Positions 23,796 to 38,138 of a stretch of DNA of 64,000 nt are shown here, piece by piece. Made by a program: the position numbers and the translations under genes. The notes below the pieces were generated by a model. The model ran no database searches and was not told the DNA's origin. It saw only the letters and a program-made list of their open reading frames with translations. Within the stretch, counting starts at the first letter, position 1, and each line of letters begins with the position of its first letter. This stretch comes from Desulfarculus baarsii DSM 2075 (lineage in GTDB: Bacteria > Desulfobacterota > Desulfarculia > Desulfarculales > Desulfarculaceae), in contig NC_014365.1 in the NCBI RefSeq assembly GCF_000143965.1, forward strand, positions 2,321,501 through 2,385,500, in the 5' to 3' direction.

Positions 23796-24042
23796 CCGCC
23801 CCCTTGCCCGCCCCGCGCCCCACCCCACCCCCGCAAAGCAAGGTGGCCGACTTTTAGTTTCGTGGTTGTAGGGATGACGACCATAGGATCGGTCATGGGC
23901 ATGGCCGCGCCGCGAAGATTGTCGCCGGTTGCCGGTGGCGTTACTGGAAGCTGGCGCGCGGGGCGCGCGCCAGCTACGGCCAAGGTTGGTTGCGCCCGGA
24001 AAAAGAAAAGATTTAAGAAAGAAGAGGTTCTTTTCTTTATCT

Positions 24043-24069
24043 CCATGAAATTGCGAAGCAATTTCATGG
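24043..24069. repeat. Perfect 12-bp inverted repeat with GAA loop
   Basis: Arms 24043-24054 and 24058-24069 are exact reverse complements around a GAA loop. The centre is GCGAAGC, known from structural work as an exceptionally stable DNA mini-hairpin. Confidence 0.85.
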
Positions 24070-24117
24070 CAAAAAGAGCAACAAGACTACCCGTGAAGCC
24101 GCCGCGAAAATGAAAAC

Positions 24118-24162
24118 GCCGCGCATCGATTGCGAAGCAATCGATGCGCGGCTTTTCTTTTT
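24118..24162 (+). terminator. 16-bp perfect hairpin with GAA loop and T-rich tail
   Basis: Arms 24118-24133 and 24137-24152 are exact reverse complements with loop GAA, followed by TTTTCTTTTT. It has the form of a strong rho-independent terminator on the plus strand, although no gene in the preceding 590 bases needs one. The centre is again GCGAAGC. Confidence 0.7.
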
Positions 24163-24174
24163 GGAGGGGGGTGC

Positions 24175-24219
24175 GGGGGGAACCTTTTTCTTTTGGCACA
24201 AAAGAAAAAGGTTCCCCCC
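24175..24219. repeat. 21-bp perfect hairpin downstream of formate dehydrogenase
   Basis: Arms 24175-24195 and 24199-24219 are exact reverse complements with a 3-base loop (GCA). The stem is six G:C pairs, then AACC, then a T-rich arm. It lies 20 bases past the fdhA stop on the minus strand, so it may stabilise or end that transcript. Confidence 0.75.
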
Positions 24220-24239
24220 GCGAGCTTTATTCGTCCGCC

Positions 24240-26936
24240 CTAGGCGGCCGGGGCCATTTTGATGGCGCAGGCCTTGTATTCGGCGGTTTGCGAGACGGGG
24301 TCGAAGGCCGGGTTGGTCAGCCAGTTGGCGCAGCCTTCGCGGAAGTGGAAGGCCATCCAGACCATGCCCGGCGGCACCTCGGCGGTGACGCGCGCGCTGA
24401 CCACGACTTCGCCGCGGCGCGAGGCCAGGCGCAGTTTGTCGCCGCTGCGCACGCCCATCTTGGCCGCGTCGGCCGGCGAGATGTCGGCGGTTTCCTCGCC
24501 CAGCAGGTCGTTGAGGCCGCCGCAGCGACCCGTTTGGGTGCGCGTGTGGTAGTGGTAGAGGCGGCGTCCGGTGCTGAGCACGTAGGGGTATTCGGCGTCG
24601 GTCACCTCGGCCGGCGGCGTCCACTCCACGGGTTTGAAATTGCCCAGGCCGCAGGTGAAGCAGCCGTCTTTGTGCATGACCTGGGTGCCGGGGTGCTCAA
24701 GCGAGGTGCAGGGCCATTGCAGGCCGTCGCCCTCGATGCGGCTGTATTTGATGCCCGTGAAGGCCGGGGCCACCACCGAGAACTCGTTGTCCCAGATCTC
24801 CTGGGCCGAGCTGGACGACCACATCTGGCCCATCCGCGCCGCCACTTCCTTGAATATCCACCAGTTGGGCTTGGCCTGGCCCGGAGGCGTCGAGACCTTG
24901 CGCACGCGGTTGACCCGCCGTTCGCTGCTGGCGAAGGTGCCGTCGTCCTCGCTCCACGCCGCCGAGGGCAGGATCACGTGGGCAAAGCGCGTGGTCTCGG
25001 TGGGGAAGATGTCGCTGCAAACCAGGAACTCGGCCGAGGCCAGTTGGTGCTCCACGTGGTGGATGTCCGGCTCGGTGTTGGCCACGTTTTCGCCGAAGAT
25101 CCACATGCCGCGGACCTTGCCGGTGACCAGCCCTTCGAACATCGCCGGCATCATCAGGCCGTTTTTGTCGTCCAGGTGCTCAACGCCCCAGAATTTCTCG
25201 AACTTCGCCTTGGCCGCCGGGTCGATGACCTTTTGGTAGCCCGGGTAGACGTTGGGCAGGGCGCCCATGTCGCAGGCCCCCTGAACGTTGTTCTGGCCGC
25301 GCAAGGGGTTCACGCCGCCGCACTCGAAGCCCACATTGCCCAGCAACATCTGCAAGTTGGCCGTCGACAACACGTTGTTGACGCCGCAGGTGTGCTCGGT
25401 GATGCCAAGGGTGTAGATCAGCATCGCCGGCTTGGTGGCCGCCAGCTTGCGCGCCACCCGGACGATCGTCTCGGCCGGCACGCCGCTGAGCTCGGCCGCC
25501 CGCTCCGGCGGATACTCCATCACCGTGGCCTTGAGCTTGTCAAACTCGACCGTGCACGACTCCACGTAGCGGCGGTCGTAGATCTCCTCGGTGATCAAAA
25601 CATGCATCAGGCCGTTGAGCAGGGCGATGTCGGAGCCCACCTTCAACTGCATGTGCTCGTCGGCCATCGCCGCCAGCGCCGTGCGACGCGGGTCGGCCAC
25701 GATCAAACCAGCGCCCTTTTGCACGGCGTTTTTCAGGAACGTCGAGGCCACAGGATGGGCCTCGGTCATGTTCGAACCTATCACCAAAAACATCTTCGCC
25801 TTGGCGAAATCAGCGAAGTTGTTGGTCATCGCCCCGGAACCAAACGATATCGCCAGACCGGCGACAGTGGGGGCGTGTCAGGTTCGTGCGCAGTGATCGA
25901 TATTGTTCGTGCCGATCACCGCGCGGAAAAGCTTTTGCATGTTATAGGAATCTTCGTTGATGCTGCGCGCGCAGCTCACCCCGGCCAGGGCGTCGGGCCC
26001 GGACTCGGCGATGATCTGCTTGAACTTGCTGGCCACCAGATCCAGCGCCTCATCCCACGAAGCCTCGCGGAAACCCTCGCCCTCGCGGATCAAAGGCGTG
26101 GTCAGACGATCCTCGGAGTAGATAAAATCATAGCCAAAACGGCCCTTGACGCAAAGACGGCCCTTGTTGGGCTCGGCGTCCTCCACCGCGCTGGTCTTGA
26201 CGATCCGCCCGTCCTTGACATGAAGCCAAATCTGGCAGCCCACTCCGCAATAAGGACACGTCGTGCGAACCTTTTGCATTTCCCAGGCGCGGCCCATGCC
26301 CTTGGCCTTCTTTTCGGTCAGGGCGCCGGTGGGGCAGACCTGCACGCATTGGCCGCAGAACACGCAGTCGCTCTGGTTGTAGGGGCGGTCGCCGCTGGTG
26401 ACGATCTTGCTCTTGGCGCCGCGATAGCCGTAGCCGATGGCCTTGTTGACCTGCACTTCGTTACAGGCCTGCACGCAACGGCCACAGAGGATGCACTTGC
26501 TGAAATCGCGCACGATCAGCGGGTTGTTGTCCTCGATGGGATAGTTGGTCGTGCGGCCCTCGAAGCGCACGGTCTCGACGCCGTACTTGTAGGCCAGGGC
26601 TTGCAGCTGACAGGCGCCGTTGGCTTCGCAGACGATGCAGTTGTGCTCGCCGCTGGCCAGCAGCAGCTCCAGGTTCAGCTTGCGTGAGCCGATCACCTTG
26701 GGGCTTTCGGTCTGGATGTCCATGCCCTCCGCGGCTGGCGTGGCGCAGGCGGCCAGCAGGGAGCGCGCCCCCTTGACCTCGACCATGCACATGCGGCAGG
26801 CGCCCGTTGGCGTGCAATCCTTGAGATAGCACAAGGTCGGAATGTCTATGCCGTTTTCCCGCGCGACCTCCAAGATGGTCTGCCCGGGAGCGAACGAGAC
26901 ACTCCTCGAGTTGATGGTTAATTGGGGATTGGGCAT
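24240..26936 (-). CDS. fdhA: Selenocysteine-containing formate dehydrogenase alpha subunit (UGA read as Sec)
   Basis: This is an 898-residue cytoplasmic molybdenum/tungsten enzyme interconverting formate and CO2. A TGA at 25878-25880 lies in frame within CART-U-HAPTVAG, exactly where Sec or Cys binds the metal in formate dehydrogenases (residue 353), and a SECIS-like hairpin follows. The N-terminus is NuoG/HydA-like, with 2Fe-2S cysteines (CYLKDCTPTGACRMC), a His/Cys cluster (EHNCIVCEANGAC) and two 4Fe-4S motifs (CILCGRCVQAC, CVFCGQCVQVCP). CPYCGVGC then starts the bis-MGD catalytic domain. No Tat signal is present. The ATG has GGGAG upstream. No electron-transfer partner lies next to it. It could feed CO2 reduction in the Wood-Ljungdahl pathway. 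Confidence 0.95.
25850..25864 (-). promoter_or_regulatory. Bacterial SECIS element core hairpin
   Basis: On the minus strand TCGCC and GGCGA pair around a GGTCT loop, starting 13 bases after the UGA. The GGUCU apical loop and short spacing match the SelB-binding hairpin of E. coli fdhF, supporting Sec insertion. Confidence 0.88.
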
Positions 26937-28896: not shown

Positions 28897-28907
28897 ACGC
28901 CGGCAAA

Positions 28908-28947
28908 AAAACCAGAGCCCGGCCACGGCGGCGCGAGCTCTGGTTTT
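28908..28947. terminator. Bidirectional terminator between converging genes
   Basis: An 11-bp perfect stem (28908-28918 with 28937-28947) joins the end of the lactamase-fold gene to the end of acs. The minus strand has a run of seven T, the plus strand four, so it works best for acs. Confidence 0.8.
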
Positions 28948-28967: not shown

Positions 28968-30956
<1,989 letters not shown>

Positions 30957-31043
30957 CTTCAGCTCCTTTCAACTCCGCGAGTTAGCTTGAAAATCCGCGT
31001 CCAGCGCCACGAAGGGCCTGCCTCTGGCGCCGGTGGTCTTTGC

Positions 31044-32321
31044 TTACGAACCGGCTGGCGCGGCCAGCACGTCCTTGCCCGTGGCGCCGGCGGGCTTGCC
31101 GACAAACAGCGTCATGCCAGCCCCGGCCAGCAGCAGCACGCCAGCCAACACGTAGGCCGAGTTGAGGCTGCCGGTGTCGGCCACGATCATCTGCGAGACG
31201 CGCGGCAGGATCAGGCCGCCCACGCCCCAGGCCGTGAACAGCAGGCCGTAGTTGGCCCCGAAGTTCTTGATGCCAAAGAAGTCCTTGGTCGCCGAAGGGA
31301 ACAGCGACAGGTTGGTGCCGTAGTTGAAGCCGATCAGCGTGGCGGCGGTGACGATCAGGGCCACGCTCTCGGTGCCGGTGTAGAGCAGGCCGAACATGAT
31401 CAGGCCTTGGAAGGAGAGCATCGCGGCCATGGTCTGCAGGCGGCCCAGCTTGTCGGAAAGCATGCCCGCGGCGATGCGGCCGCCGGCGTTGCCCACGGCC
31501 ATCAGGGCCACCACCAGCCAGGCCATCTCGCCCAGCGAAGCCGAGGCCATGCCGGCCACGCTGCCGATGATCATCAGGCCCGCGCCAGAGCCCACCGCGT
31601 AGATGAACCACAGCACCCAGAAGGCGCGCGTGCGCAGCATCACCTTGGGCTCGACATCGATCATCACGTGGTTGGACGGGGCCGACTTGTTCTGCGTGGC
31701 GGCGGTCTGTGGTTGGGGCGGCTTGTAGCCGGCCGGCGGGTTGACCAGCAACTGGGCCAGGGCGCTCACCACCACGATGAAGGCCCCGCCGAAGATCATC
31801 ATCGATTGGCTCAGGCCAAACTGGCCGATGAGGTACTTGGCCAGGGGCGCGATGTAGACCGAGGCCAGGCCGAAGCCGGCCACGACGATGCCGGCGATCA
31901 TGCCCGTCTTGGAGGCCGGGAACCACTTGATGGCCGGCGGCGTGGCCGAGGCGTAGCCAAAGCCCAGGCCGGCGCCCATCAGCACGCCAAAGCCGAGGAC
32001 CCACACCAAAAGCGATGTGGAGAACGAGGCCAGCAACAGGCCCAGGCCCGTGAGCACGCCGCCGATGGTGGCCGTGACCCGGGGGCTTAGCTTATCCTGC
32101 ATGCGCCCGGCCGGGATCATGGCGAAGGCGAACACGATGCAACAAACGGCGTAGGGGTCGTTGAGCGAGGCCATGTCCCAGTTGAACATGCCGTCGCCGC
32201 GCTCGATGGAATCCTTGATGGCCAGCTTGAAAACACTCCAGGTGTACAAAATGCCAAGCGCCAGGTTGATGCCCAACCCGGCCATGGCGACCTGCCATCC
32301 CTTGTTCTTTATCTGGCTCAT
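31044..32321 (-). CDS. OFA-family MFS transporter (oxalate/formate antiporter-like)
   Basis: This is a 425-residue major facilitator protein with about 12 helices. The N-terminus WQVAMAGLGINLALGILYTWSV is the hallmark of the oxalate/formate antiporter (OFA) family, which also includes lactate and other monocarboxylate carriers. MIPAGRMQDKLSPRV matches the MFS loop 2-3 motif, repeated as AAGMLSDKLGRLQTM in the second half. The gene leads an operon with acs, so acetate or another short carboxylate is the likely cargo; that is inference. The ATG has a GGA-rich site upstream. A sigma54 promoter and inverted repeats precede it. Confidence 0.9.
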   Translation of the reverse strand: MSQIKNKGWQVAMAGLGINLALGILYTWSVFKLAIKDSIERGDGMFNWDMASLNDPYAVCCIVFAFAMIPAGRMQDKLSPRVTATIGGVLTGLGLLLASFSTSLLVWVLGFGVLMGAGLGFGYASATPPAIKWFPASKTGMIAGIVVAGFGLASVYIAPLAKYLIGQFGLSQSMMIFGGAFIVVVSALAQLLVNPPAGYKPPQPQTAATQNKSAPSNHVMIDVEPKVMLRTRAFWVLWFIYAVGSGAGLMIIGSVAGMASASLGEMAWLVVALMAVGNAGGRIAAGMLSDKLGRLQTMAAMLSFQGLIMFGLLYTGTESVALIVTAATLIGFNYGTNLSLFPSATKDFFGIKNFGANYGLLFTAWGVGGLILPRVSQMIVADTGSLNSAYVLAGVLLLAGAGMTLFVGKPAGATGKDVLAAPAGS

Positions 32322-32345
32322 ACTCCATCCTCTCCGGTTTTGGGT

Positions 32346-32361
32346 TGACCGACATCGGTCA
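32346..32361. promoter_or_regulatory. Perfect palindrome in the OFA-acs leader
   Basis: TGACCGA-CA-TCGGTCA, 7-bp arms, lies between the predicted sigma54 start site and the ATG. It could be an operator or an mRNA hairpin. Confidence 0.5.
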
Positions 32362-32375
32362 CGCCCTAGAGGCAG

Positions 32376-32392
32376 AGCAACTTTCGCGCCAA
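32376..32392 (-). promoter_or_regulatory. Sigma54 (-24/-12) promoter of the OFA-acs operon
   Basis: Read on the minus strand, TTGGCGCG-AAAG-TTGCT fits the YTGGCACG-N4-TTGCW consensus with one mismatch and exact spacing. It predicts a leader of about 43 bases. A sigma54 activator gene lies immediately upstream of this region. Confidence 0.8.
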
Positions 32393-32493
32393 AAAGATCG
32401 TTGTGGAATTTTGCAATTGATTATGGCGTGTTAGGCCAAAGGAGCCGCGCAAGAAGCCGTCGGGCAGGTTGCCGCGGGCCGCGTAATTAGCAA

Positions 32494-32527
32494 TTTTGCC
32501 AATATCTGGCGTAGCCGATTGGCAAAA
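32494..32527. promoter_or_regulatory. Inverted repeat, likely enhancer site for the sigma54 activator
   Basis: TTTTGCCAAT and ATTGGCAAAA are exact reverse complements separated by 14 bases, about 110-150 bases upstream of the predicted sigma54 start. Position and symmetry suit an NtrC-type upstream activating sequence. Confidence 0.7.
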
Positions 32528-32554
32528 CTTCAAACCCAGTCCGGCGGCCGGCGC

Positions 32555-33925
32555 TCAATCGCCCAATAGCTTTTTTTTGCGATAGCGGAAGGTGTGATAA
32601 TTCAGGCCCAGCAATTCGGCGGCGCGGACGTCGCTGCCGCCGCCCAACGCCTCGGCTTGTTGCAGATAATCGCGCTCCAGGCCCTCCAACAACGCCGGCA
32701 GGTCCAGCCCGGCCGGCGTCAACGGCGGCAGGGCCTGGCCGGCGGCGGCCGGGGCGGCCGGCGGCTCGGCGCGCAGGCTCTCCATGGTCAGTTCGGGGCC
32801 GTCGCCGGCGATGACCGCCCGTTCGATGACCGCCTTGAGCTCGCGGACGTTGCCCTCCCAGGGCCGCCCGCGCAGATAGGCCATCGCCTCGGGGCTGATG
32901 GACAAAAACCGCTTGCCGTACTTGTCGGCCATGGCCACCAGAAAATGCCGGGCGATGGGCTCGATATCCTCGGGCCGCTCCATCAGCGAGGGCACGTCGA
33001 CCCTGGTCACGGCCAGGCGATAATAAAGGTCGCGACGAAACTGGCCCTGGTCGATCATCGCCGCCAGGTCGCGGTTGGTGGCCGAGACCACCCTGGCCCG
33101 CACCTTGGTCGGCCGGGCCGAACCCACCTTGATGAACTCGCCGCCATCCAAAAAGCGCAGCAGTTTGGCCTGGGCCTCCAGGCTCAGGTCGCCCACCTCG
33201 TCCAAAAACAGCGTGCCGCCGTCGGCCTCCTCGATCAGGCCCCGCTTGCCGCCGGCCCGCGCCCCGCTGAAGGCCCCGGGTTCGTAGCCGAACAACTCGC
33301 TCTCGATCAGCTCGGCGGGGATGGCCGCGCAGTTGACCGTGACCAGCCTACCGCGAAAATTGGGGCTCTTGTAGTGGATGGCCCCGGCGATGAGTTCCTT
33401 GCCCGTGCCGGTGGGCCCGCAGATCAGCACCGGCGCGTCGGGGCTGGCGGCGATCTTGCCCACGAAGTCCATCACCGCCTGGATCGCCCGCGAACGGCCG
33501 ATGAACAGCGGCAGGTTTTCCTCCAGGTAGCGCTGATGCAGCAGGCTCACTTCCTTGCGCAGGCGCAAGGTCTCCAGGGCGTTTTCGATGTTGTTTTTCA
33601 GCGAATCCATGTGCAGCGGCTTGACCACGTAGTCGTAGGCCCCGCCCTTCATGGCCGTGACCACCGTGTCGACGTCCTCATAGGCGGTGATCATGATGAA
33701 CAGGGCCCGGGGCCACAGCCGGCGCATGGGGGCCAAGGCCTCGACGCCGCTCAGGCCGGGCAGGCCCACATCCAAAAGCACCAGGTCCGGCGGCGGAGTC
33801 GGGCCGGGGGCCATGGCCGCCTCGGCCGAGGCAAAGCCGAAGACAGCGTAGCGGCCCAGGTTCAACTCGACCGCGTCGCGGATGAATTCTTCGTCATCGA
33901 CCACATAGATGCAAAACGAGATCAT
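32555..33925 (-). CDS. Sigma54-dependent response regulator (NtrC family)
   Basis: This is a 456-residue activator. The receiver domain (1-120) begins FCIYVVDDEEF, with the phospho-acceptor Asp in VLLDVGLPG and Lys in VVKPLH. The AAA+ domain (about 135-375) has Walker A GPTGTGKE, an ESELFGYEPGAFSGA loop and Walker B GGTLFLDEVGD. The usual GAFTGA sigma54-contact loop reads GAFSGA here. A Fis-type HTH (RAAELLGLNYHTFRYRKKKL) ends it. I prefer the ATG at 33925, with GGGAAGAGG just upstream, to an ATG at 33946 that overlaps the kinase stop. It likely controls the divergently placed OFA-acs sigma54 promoter. Confidence 0.93.
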   Translation of the reverse strand: MISFCIYVVDDEEFIRDAVELNLGRYAVFGFASAEAAMAPGPTPPPDLVLLDVGLPGLSGVEALAPMRRLWPRALFIMITAYEDVDTVVTAMKGGAYDYVVKPLHMDSLKNNIENALETLRLRKEVSLLHQRYLEENLPLFIGRSRAIQAVMDFVGKIAASPDAPVLICGPTGTGKELIAGAIHYKSPNFRGRLVTVNCAAIPAELIESELFGYEPGAFSGARAGGKRGLIEEADGGTLFLDEVGDLSLEAQAKLLRFLDGGEFIKVGSARPTKVRARVVSATNRDLAAMIDQGQFRRDLYYRLAVTRVDVPSLMERPEDIEPIARHFLVAMADKYGKRFLSISPEAMAYLRGRPWEGNVRELKAVIERAVIAGDGPELTMESLRAEPPAAPAAAGQALPPLTPAGLDLPALLEGLERDYLQQAEALGGGSDVRAAELLGLNYHTFRYRKKKLLGD

Positions 33926-33938
33926 CGCCTCTTCCCGC

Positions 33939-36140
33939 CTAACCATGGCTATCGTAGCCCCAGTAGATCACCGCCGGCAGACTCACCACAAACTCGGCCC
34001 CGCCCATGGCCCCGCGATTGTACTCCAGCGCGCCGCCCAAGTCGCCGACGATGCGCGCGCACAAGCTCAGCCCGATGCCCGAGCCGTGGCCGCCGGTGGA
34101 GAAAAACGGGTCGAAGATGCGGTCCTGATGTTCGGGCGGCACGCCGGGGCCCGAATCGGCCACGCGCACGGTCACCCGGTGGCCCTGCACGGCCGAGTTG
34201 ATGCGCAGGCGCCTGGGACCGTCCCAGTCCTTCATGGCCTGCATGGCGTTGGTGACCAGGTTGACAAAGACCTGCTCCAAAAGTTGCTGATCGGCGTAGA
34301 TCAAGGGCAGGCCCTTTTCCAGGCGCAGATCAACGCTGACGCCGGCTTTGCGCAGGCTGACGGCGGTCAGCTCCAGGACGTTTTCCAGGGCGCGGTTGAC
34401 CTGCATCCAGCCCAGCATCGGCGTGGTCGGCCGCGAAAAATCCAACACCCGCTTGACCACGGCCTCGATGCGGCCGCTGACCGAGCGCATCTTTTCTATG
34501 ATCGCCGCCGTGGCCGGGTCGGCGGCGGCATTGGAGCCCTGGAGCGCGCTGAGGTACAGGTTGATGCCCGAGAGCGGGTTTCGTATCTCGTGGGCGATGC
34601 CGGCGGCCACGCGGCCCAGCGAAGCCATCTTGTCCTGGATCTTGACCATGTGCTCCAGTTCCTTGGCCCGCGAAATGTCGAGCATGATGATCAGATAAGC
34701 CGGCCCGCCCTTGTGGCTGATGCGCGTGGCCCGGCATAGCACCCAGCGCAGCTCCATGCTGTTGTAGACCTTGCCCAGGGGATAAAAGCGCAGCTCGTGC
34801 TCCCAGGTGCGGCCCTCGCCCAGGCCCGGCTCGTTGTCGAGGTGATAGAGCATGCGCAGGTCGCCCGGCGGCGCGCTCATCAGGTCGTCAAAGTAAAAAT
34901 CGTCGCGCTCGACGCCAAAAAGCCGCTTTTGCTCGGGATTGCTGTAGACCACCCGACCGTCCTTGAGGATGAGGATGCCGGCCGGCGAATGCTCCACCAG
35001 ACTGCGGAAGCGGCGCTCGCTCTCGGCCAGCTTGCGGCCGGTCTCGATGCGCGGGGTGATGTCCTCGTGGGTGCAGAGCACGCCGAAGATCTCGCCAGTC
35101 TCATCGCGCAGAGGCACGCGGTTGGACTCCAGCCACATCTCGGCCCCGCCCGGCCCGCGCCTGGGCTCGACCACGTGCAACTCGGCCCGGCCCGACTCCA
35201 TCACCGCCCGCTCCAGGCCGAACTGGCCGTCGCCATCCTCGAGCACCCCCGGCGCGTCCACCTGGCGCAGGCCCTGGATCGCGTCGTCCTCGGCCAGGCC
35301 GGCCAGCTGCCGAAAGCCCTTGTTGCAGCCCTGGAACACGCCGTCCTTGTCGCGCCAGTAGATGTATTGGGGGATGTTGTCCATGACCAGGCGCAGCATC
35401 TCCCGCGATTGGCGCAGGCTGTTTTCGGCGCGCATGCGGCTGCGCTCGGTGCGGAAGTTGTATTGGGCCACGTAGAGCAGAAGCACGGCGATGATGCCCA
35501 GGGTGCCCAGGGCCGTCTGGGTGAAGTGGCGAACGATGGCGGCGATCTGGCGGTCGACGTCGTCGATGTAGACGCCCGTGCCCACGATCCAACCCCAGGG
35601 CGTGAACTCCTTGATGAACGACAGCTTGGGCGCGATCTTTTTGGGGTCGTCCTTCCACTGCCACATGTAGTCGACAAACCCCTCGCCGTGGGCCTTGGCC
35701 GTCTGGACGAACTCCACGAAGAGGCGCTTGCCGTTGGGGTCGGCGAAATCGCTGATGTCTTTTCCTTCCAGGTCGCTGCGATAAGGGTGCATGACCATGA
35801 TCGGATGCATGTCGTTTATCCAGAAATAGTCTTTCATCTCGCGGCCATAACGCTGCTGGCGCAATTGCCGCACGGCCAGTTCCCGGGCCTGGGCCATGGT
35901 CAACTCGCCTTTTTGCCGCCGCGCCTCCAAAAAGGCCAGGCCGTCCATGGCCGTCTGGACCAGCTCGCGCAGCATCTCGCGCTTGCGGTCCATGATGTTG
36001 GCCCGCAGCTCTGGCAGCACCACCAGAAAGATGGCCGCCAAAAACACGCACACCGTCAAAAGCGACGGCAAAATCAGGCGCATGGCCGTCATGGCCCAGA
36101 GCTTGCGGTGCATGCGCCGTTCGCGGCCGGACTTGTCCAC
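33939..36140 (-). CDS. Membrane sensor histidine kinase with Cache and PAS domains
   Basis: This is a 733-residue kinase. Helix 1 (about 18-45) is followed by a periplasmic single Cache (sCache_2-type) domain with DYFWINDMHPIMVMHPY and FTPWGWIVGTGVYIDDVD, and helix 2 (about 210-230). Two PAS domains follow (about 255-375 and 390-500). The phosphoacceptor helix has the H-box GIAHEIRNPLSG. The ATPase domain has NLVTNAMQA (N-box), DSGPGVPPEH (G1) and GSGIGLSLC (G2). The start is a GTG at 36140 with AAAGGA 7 bases upstream. It precedes and nearly overlaps the NtrC-type regulator, so the two form a pair. Cache domains of this class sense small carboxylates in several systems, which would suit the acs neighbourhood. 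Confidence 0.93.
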   Translation of the reverse strand: MDKSGRERRMHRKLWAMTAMRLILPSLLTVCVFLAAIFLVVLPELRANIMDRKREMLRELVQTAMDGLAFLEARRQKGELTMAQARELAVRQLRQQRYGREMKDYFWINDMHPIMVMHPYRSDLEGKDISDFADPNGKRLFVEFVQTAKAHGEGFVDYMWQWKDDPKKIAPKLSFIKEFTPWGWIVGTGVYIDDVDRQIAAIVRHFTQTALGTLGIIAVLLLYVAQYNFRTERSRMRAENSLRQSREMLRLVMDNIPQYIYWRDKDGVFQGCNKGFRQLAGLAEDDAIQGLRQVDAPGVLEDGDGQFGLERAVMESGRAELHVVEPRRGPGGAEMWLESNRVPLRDETGEIFGVLCTHEDITPRIETGRKLAESERRFRSLVEHSPAGILILKDGRVVYSNPEQKRLFGVERDDFYFDDLMSAPPGDLRMLYHLDNEPGLGEGRTWEHELRFYPLGKVYNSMELRWVLCRATRISHKGGPAYLIIMLDISRAKELEHMVKIQDKMASLGRVAAGIAHEIRNPLSGINLYLSALQGSNAAADPATAAIIEKMRSVSGRIEAVVKRVLDFSRPTTPMLGWMQVNRALENVLELTAVSLRKAGVSVDLRLEKGLPLIYADQQLLEQVFVNLVTNAMQAMKDWDGPRRLRINSAVQGHRVTVRVADSGPGVPPEHQDRIFDPFFSTGGHGSGIGLSLCARIVGDLGGALEYNRGAMGGAEFVVSLPAVIYWGYDSHG

Positions 36141-37679: not shown

Positions 37680-38138
37680 TCAATCGAGGTAGAACCACGA
37701 ACCGACAAGCAGCGTCTTGCCGTCGAGGGTCACGCCCTTGACGTATGAGCGGGTCTGGCGCGGAGTCGCGTCGTTGGACACGGCCCAGGGCGCGTCGATC
37801 CAGCCGGCGCCCTTGGCCTTGACCAGGGCCAGTTGCTCACTGACAACCGACGCTCCGGAAGGCATTTTGCGGTCGGAGATGTTTTTGCCCTGCAGATCGG
37901 GCGAGGCCGTGTTGACCAACTCCTGGCCGCTTTCCTCGCAGACGAACAGGTTGTCGCCGACGTCGGACTTGCGCAGTTCGTCGATGGCGGCCATGCCCTT
38001 GGCCTCGATCAGCGCCGCGGCCTTTTCGGCGATGGCCTGGGCCTTGGCTTCTTTTTCATCGGCGGCCTGGGCCGCGCCCAGGCAAACGAAAACGGTCAAC
38101 ATCGCCAGCGACCCCAGCATCAGCATTTTTTTCAGCAT
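37680..38138 (-). CDS. Secreted stand-alone Cache-domain protein
   Basis: This 152-residue protein has a signal peptide (about 1-25, cleavage near AQAAD) followed by one small Cache-type domain. Visible landmarks are a long first helix, NLFVCEESGQELVNTASPDL, GKNISDRKMPSG and the final strand pair DGKTLLVGSWFYLD. There is no membrane anchor or signalling domain after it, so it is a free periplasmic ligand-binding module rather than a receptor. It could bind a small carboxylate and present it to a partner. Partners are not evident, although a Cache kinase lies 1.5 kb away. The ATG has GGAG upstream. Confidence 0.83.
   Translation of the reverse strand: MLKKMLMLGSLAMLTVFVCLGAAQAADEKEAKAQAIAEKAAALIEAKGMAAIDELRKSDVGDNLFVCEESGQELVNTASPDLQGKNISDRKMPSGASVVSEQLALVKAKGAGWIDAPWAVSNDATPRQTRSYVKGVTLDGKTLLVGSWFYLD

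Follow-up and report, generated by a model that had tools for sequence, protein, structure and literature searches.

A probable sigma54-dependent, acetate-type sensing circuit upstream of a transporter-acs operon in Desulfarculus baarsii

In Escherichia coli, the kinase AtoS and the NtrC-type regulator AtoC control the sigma54 promoter of atoDAEB for the catabolism of short-chain acids, and the paired upstream sites of this system are two inverted 20-bp sites (PMC3118216). The locus described here, from Desulfarculus baarsii DSM 2075, is similar in having a kinase, an NtrC-type regulator, a sigma54 promoter, and paired inverted sites upstream, and AtoC and AtoS are the best NCBIfam matches of its regulator and kinase. 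However, both scores lie far below the equivalog cut-offs (AtoC, 349.3 of 714 bits; AtoS, 215.8 of 646), the sensor is a single Cache (sCache) domain, and what is controlled is a transporter gene with acs and not acetoacetate catabolism. The circuit works like AtoSC, yet by score it is not a member. In the sulfate reducer Desulfovibrio vulgaris, LurSR is likewise a two-component sigma54 activator system beside a carboxylate-use operon, but the operon is for lactate, LurS is a hybrid PAS kinase, and the quoted LurR sites, e.g., GTCTGCAATGTCGGAC, differ from the dyads found here (PMC6456213). CrbSR also provides two-component activation of acs for acetate use, although with a kinase fused to an SLC5 transporter and a LuxR-type regulator (PMC5715377, PMC9100948), neither of which is present in the domain annotation of our locus. 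The rhizobial MctSR and RpuSR systems place a Cache-2 kinase beside a monocarboxylate transporter, MctP, and tie this same transporter to different two-component systems in different lineages; in contrast to our locus, MctP is described as another kind of symporter, there is no link to acs, and no sigma54 element is mentioned (PMC9100948).

Individual parts of the locus also have described counterparts. The single-Cache domains of PscD and Adeh_3718 (4K08) belong to the same domain family as that of the kinase and have the identical seven ligand-contact residues (PMC5062169), but they come from chemoreceptors and not from histidine kinases. The transporter SfMCT (PDB 6g9x) is of the same MFS family and shares the carboxylate-binding Arg, Asn, and Tyr, while its specificity and proton-coupling residues differ. 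The only acs-linked regulator of a sulfate reducer met in our literature search was DVU0749 of D. vulgaris, which, unlike the regulator here, is of the LytR type (PMC3333781); the search found no acetate-uptake regulator in complete-oxidising sulfate reducers, and keyword searches of two papers, one on the sigma54 regulome of D. vulgaris (PMC4641369) and one on a Desulfobacteraceae network (PMC11887813), did not reveal the circuit. Within the literature searched, the class of system is well known, whereas this member, its predicted binding sites, and its likely ligand appear to be new.

The window, i.e., the whole 64-kb stretch of D. baarsii DNA that was analysed, carries on its minus strand, in this order, the kinase, the regulator, the control region, the transporter, acs, and a terminator (Table 1). 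An earlier note on this DNA had named the neighbouring genes as an NtrC-type activator and a Cache/PAS kinase, which Pfam confirmed, and had placed all parts of the system in one 7.5-kb stretch; they do lie in a single stretch, with 7.2 kb from kinase to acs. The regulator starts at either 33946 or 33925. The transporter and acs are separated by 87 bp with no terminator-like site inside the gap, and both sequence and comparison indicate that they form a two-gene operon with its own terminator. A second acs gene (G000:C1:3528818-3530785, locus L185) is 82% identical to the operon copy and has no sigma54 site and no strong dyad upstream. Near the kinase, 37680-38138 encodes a small protein with a signal-peptide-like start and little beyond a single Cache-like domain, possibly a soluble carboxylate binder. 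Farther away, two adjoining minus-strand reading frames at 24240-26936 resemble one formate dehydrogenase split by a stop, which is possibly a selenocysteine codon, and four perfect inverted repeats, one with 23-bp arms, are clustered in 220 bp at 24002-24221.

Table 1. Coordinates of the predicted control elements and genes in the window
Feature	Position	Strand	Basis or remark
Sigma54 -24/-12 promoter, TTGGCGCGAAAGTTGCT	32376..32392	-	Consensus match and orthologous positions in relatives
Leader palindrome, TGACCGACATCGGTCA	32346..32361	.	About +5 to +20; function unsupported
Inverted repeat, TTTTGCCAAT-N14-ATTGGCAAAA	32494..32527	.	Inner parts of both dyads
Promoter-proximal activator dyad, TGGCAAAATTGCTA	32488..32501	-	Centre about -130; rank 3 with both motifs
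Promoter-distal activator dyad, TTGAAGTTTTGCCA	32520..32533	-	Centre about -162; rank 5 with relatives-only motif, rank 4 with hand-picked motif
Possible third site, TGCAAAATTCCACA	32402..32415	-	Weak; between activator sites and promoter
MFS monocarboxylate transporter, SfMCT-like	31044..32321	-	NF049980, 422.6 bits (cut-off 320); PDB 6g9x, 35% identity
acs, acetate-CoA ligase	28968..30956	-	TIGR02188, 998 bits (cut-off 725)
Rho-independent terminator at the operon end, with A-tract, stem, and T7	28905..28947	-	Behind acs
NtrC-type response regulator	32555..33946	-	Pfam: receiver, sigma54 AAA+, Fis-type helix NYHTFRYRKKKL
Sensor histidine kinase	33939..36140	-	Pfam: sCache_2, two PAS, HisKA, HATPase

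On the minus strand, the predicted promoter reads TTGGCGCG-AAAG-TTGCT, one base off TGGCACG-N4-TTGCW, with the -24 GG and the -12 GC near consensus and at the correct spacing. The sequence and position given for this sigma54-type element in the earlier note hold, and its conservation in relatives backs the sigma54 reading. Matches to the strict pattern TGGCRCG-N4-TTGCW number 18 in the 3,655,731-bp genome against 4 for a reversed control, and the element outscores every one of 200 dinucleotide-shuffled versions of the intergenic region in which it lies. From the position of the promoter, transcription would start at about 32365. The genome encodes both an AAA+ activator with a sigma54 interaction domain and the sigma54 factor itself, with one copy of rpoN, and the activator protein has 28 matches in the genome. 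The 7-bp palindrome reported for the leader (TGACCGA-CA-TCGGTCA) is present as described, but comparative support for a role is absent: this is its sole occurrence in the genome with up to one mismatch, and it is missing from the leaders of nine relatives. We therefore rejected it as an operator. Rfam gave no match in 31000-34000.

The exact inverted repeat that the earlier note saw about 110-150 bases upstream is also present, and its measured position, 102-135 bp upstream of the -24 element, is close to that estimate. The genome search that the same note had proposed returned no second copy with up to three mismatches (control, 0). Shuffling the 233-bp intergenic region 20,000 times produced a perfect inverted repeat with 10-bp arms and a loop of up to 30 in 107 cases, and because the window holds 16 such repeats, the rarity of this one is modest, suggestive evidence, conservation in relatives being the stronger argument. 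A better reading is that the repeat consists of the inner portions of two predicted 14-bp activator dyads, so that its proposed role as an upstream activator sequence gains support, but as two separate dyads and not as one site.

An unsupervised motif search over the upstream regions of 11 relatives, from which the window's own region was excluded and for which no sites were picked by hand, returned TAGAAAATTTTCTA, a 14-bp dyad, with a total score of 214.8 compared with 117-122 in eight shuffled sets. When this relatives-only motif was scanned over the window (63,987 positions), the two dyads, 32 bp apart, took the ranks listed in Table 1, and with a hand-aligned motif they were the top-scoring pair in the window, although the 32-bp distance was added to the pair score after having been seen. 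The two single matches ranking above both dyads lie inside coding sequence. The possible third site scores 7.5, compared with 15.6 and 13.1 for the two main dyads. A relaxed form of the dyad has seven matches in the genome, and only the one at the operon is followed, some 100 bp downstream and in the correct orientation, by a sigma54-like site; the exact TTGGCAAAANTKC occurs in the genome only at the operon control region. A wider regulon drawn from TTGGCAAAANTKC was rejected, most one-mismatch matches belonging to an unrelated genome-wide repeat. That repeat is at least 150 bp long, with several hairpins and the core TTGGCAAAAGCGCGGTTTTGCCAA, and is present in roughly two dozen genome copies (G000:C1), for example, around position 1500 in loci L121, L126, L128, L130, and L133; its arms resemble the activator dyads, but the element itself is unrelated.

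Relatives of the transporter were collected from the class, together with 80 contigs with 10-kb flanks. The closest are those of Desulfarculaceae (Desulfocarbo, Dethiosulfatarculus), and in this family, as at the majority of Desulfobacteraceae loci, the transporter has the kinase-regulator pair as its neighbour. The comparison covered 44 orthologous upstream regions, including non-independent ones from near-identical species. The top-scoring sigma54 site exceeded dinucleotide shuffles at p<0.05 in 40 of them and at p<=0.01 in 31, and these sites mostly lie 60-115 bp before the transporter start. Upstream activator sites are conserved as well, and in Desulfarculaceae they take the form of two AT-rich dyads upstream of the transporter. 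The Desulfobacteraceae and related contigs instead have ACAAC-N4-GTTGT dyads, of which 97 (two mismatches allowed) occur in 32 upstream regions against 5.7 expected; at least three are present in 30 of these regions, the first two almost always exactly 18 bp apart. These arrays (L047, L051, L056, L067, and others) are very regular upstream of the transporter across Desulfobacteraceae, usually comprising three dyads with spacings of 18 bp and about 70 or 90 bp. No such dyads were found in six Desulfarculaceae regions, and the window's own control region has one isolated match.

The DNA-binding helix of the regulator differs in step with the sites, being NYHTFRYRKKKL in Desulfarculaceae and ISQQALSKRLKK in Desulfobacteraceae. 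Those Desulfobacteraceae kinases that were inspected at the sequence level are about 500-530 aa long, compared with 733, and their sCache domain runs to the kinase core, with no room for two PAS domains. Sensor pocket and transporter are the same in Desulfobacteraceae, where acs is often present too, but the regulator lineage and the site are different. One reading of this pattern, which we advance tentatively and consider somewhat doubtful, is that the input (a single-Cache acetate sensor) and the output (transporter plus acs) have been kept across sulfate reducers while the middle has been exchanged, between a wiring of sCache-PAS-PAS kinase, NYHTFRYRKKKL regulator, and TAGAAAATTTTCTA sites in Desulfarculaceae and one of short sCache kinase, ISQQALSKRLKK regulator, and three ACAAC-N4-GTTGT sites in Desulfobacteraceae. 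In the regulator tree, each of the two lineages forms a solid clade, and since their joining as one clade or as sisters is not rejected (AU p = 0.50), replacement and divergence are not separable there. Replacement of the regulator is plausible, with the rhizobial MctSR/RpuSR as a precedent (PMC9100948).

The nearest solved domains to the Cache domain of the kinase are 4K08 (E 8e-42) and PscD (E 7e-35), and the kinase is identical to PscD at all seven contact residues (Y90, W92, H103, F126, Y143, W145, and K156), which are all kept in 37 of the 39 sensor kinases examined. PscD binds glycolate at 23 uM, acetate at 31 uM, propionate at 101 uM, and pyruvate at 356 uM (PMC5062169). Given the conservation of this PscD-type pocket for C2/C3 carboxylates, together with the residue differences in the transporter and the adjoining acs described below, our best guess for the sensor ligand is acetate or a closely related acid, C3 acids being the chief alternative; the earlier expectation of acetate or a short carboxylate thus finds support in the pocket. 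The "OFA" label that had been given to the transporter, in contrast, is imprecise, as its scores against the oxalate/formate families (TIGR00890, 205.2 bits against a cut-off of 374.9; TIGR04259, 147.3 against 335) are far under the cut-offs, and it is closest to SfMCT.

The same circuit might instead have a C3 acid (L-lactate, pyruvate, or propionate) as its signal and cargo, with acs being secondary or propionate-activating, and we regard this as unlikely but worth weighing. The transporter passes the L-lactate family cut-off and conserves the SfMCT substrate residues Y119, N276, R280, Y331, and F359, and only unsubstituted acids of at least three carbons competed significantly in SfMCT (PMC6573034); the family cut-off and the competition data keep lactate, pyruvate, and propionate as candidates. 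Propionate and pyruvate are also bound by the PscD-type pocket, and L-lactate is a ligand of McpP (PMC5062169). However, relative to the SfMCT pocket, the transporter has the changes L145F, F335L, and C362W, the first two at residues that confine the SfMCT substrate, and the proton residues D257 and D378, which are essential in SfMCT (PMC6573034), are replaced by S and A. In addition, acs adjoins the transporter in 31 of the 80 loci (23 downstream and 8 upstream), and the synthetase scores far above the acetate family cut-off and below the propionate one. NF049980 would label 31044-32321 an L-lactate transporter despite the absence of key specificity and proton residues, and this label is probably too broad for the clade to which the transporter belongs.

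Two further alternatives concern the control region itself. It is very improbable that the promoter and dyads are chance matches and that a sigma70 promoter, or readthrough from the kinase-regulator operon, drives the operon: consensus scans do yield chance matches in a 3.66-Mb genome, as the reversed control illustrates, but both elements are conserved across genera, and no sigma70-like site was found in 32200-32700. The inverted repeat begins 27 bp past the regulator stop codon and forms a stable hairpin (-12.8 kcal/mol), as a terminator or attenuator of the regulator gene might, yet its TTTT-stem-AAAA arrangement has the wrong polarity, as the stem is not followed by a run of T, and scanning the minus strand gave no terminator at the repeat. 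The site sequence also varies with the DNA-binding helix of the regulator in relatives, and dyads keep their place ahead of the transporter promoter at loci whose regulator gene lies elsewhere. At L050, the kinase and regulator genes diverge from the transporter gene, and at L028, L030, and L035, which match or are related to L050, the sigma54 site of the transporter still has the dyad pair upstream of it, with no regulator gene end preceding the pair. On polarity and on these divergent loci we rejected the terminator reading, which is extremely improbable.

We consider it probable, with good but not full confidence, that the locus is an acetate-type circuit in which an sCache kinase and an NtrC-type regulator act on the sigma54 promoter of the transporter-acs operon. 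The complete sigma54 control region run by the neighbouring kinase and regulator, as originally proposed, is supported by the conserved promoter, sites, gene order, and pocket, and sequence and comparison likewise identify the gene module, the operon, and its terminator. In this model, the periplasmic single-Cache domain of the kinase would bind an external small carboxylate, most probably acetate, and the kinase would phosphorylate the adjoining regulator. The regulator would then bind both 14-bp dyads, whose centres lie some 130 and 162 bp before the putative start site, and DNA looping would bring it to RNA polymerase-sigma54 at 32376-32392, where it would open the promoter. The transporter and Acs would import and activate the acid, transcription ending at the terminator behind acs. 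Binding, phosphotransfer, and looping are inferred steps, as are the start site and which acid is involved. Several observations count against the proposal: the centre-to-centre distance of the dyads is 32 bp here compared with 20 or 22 bp in the hand-aligned pairs of relatives, although these distances differ by about one helical turn; the -12 element is poor (TTGA, TTGT) in several relatives; acs does not adjoin the transporter in other Desulfarculaceae, so its membership is not constant within the family; and the L-lactate family score and the SfMCT competition data weighed above leave lactate, pyruvate, and propionate as candidates.

Complete-oxidising sulfate reducers process much acetate in anoxic sediments. 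The locus offers a sensor whose ligand can be predicted, an operon open to testing, and, for two families, predicted binding sites, and its analysis corrects a likely over-extended "L-lactate transporter" label. If the exchange reading is true, the kinase core, regulator, and operator would have been replaced together around a fixed sensor pocket and a fixed target. In D. baarsii, a sulfate reducer appears to sense external acetate or a similar small acid and to switch on the genes for its uptake and activation through sigma54.
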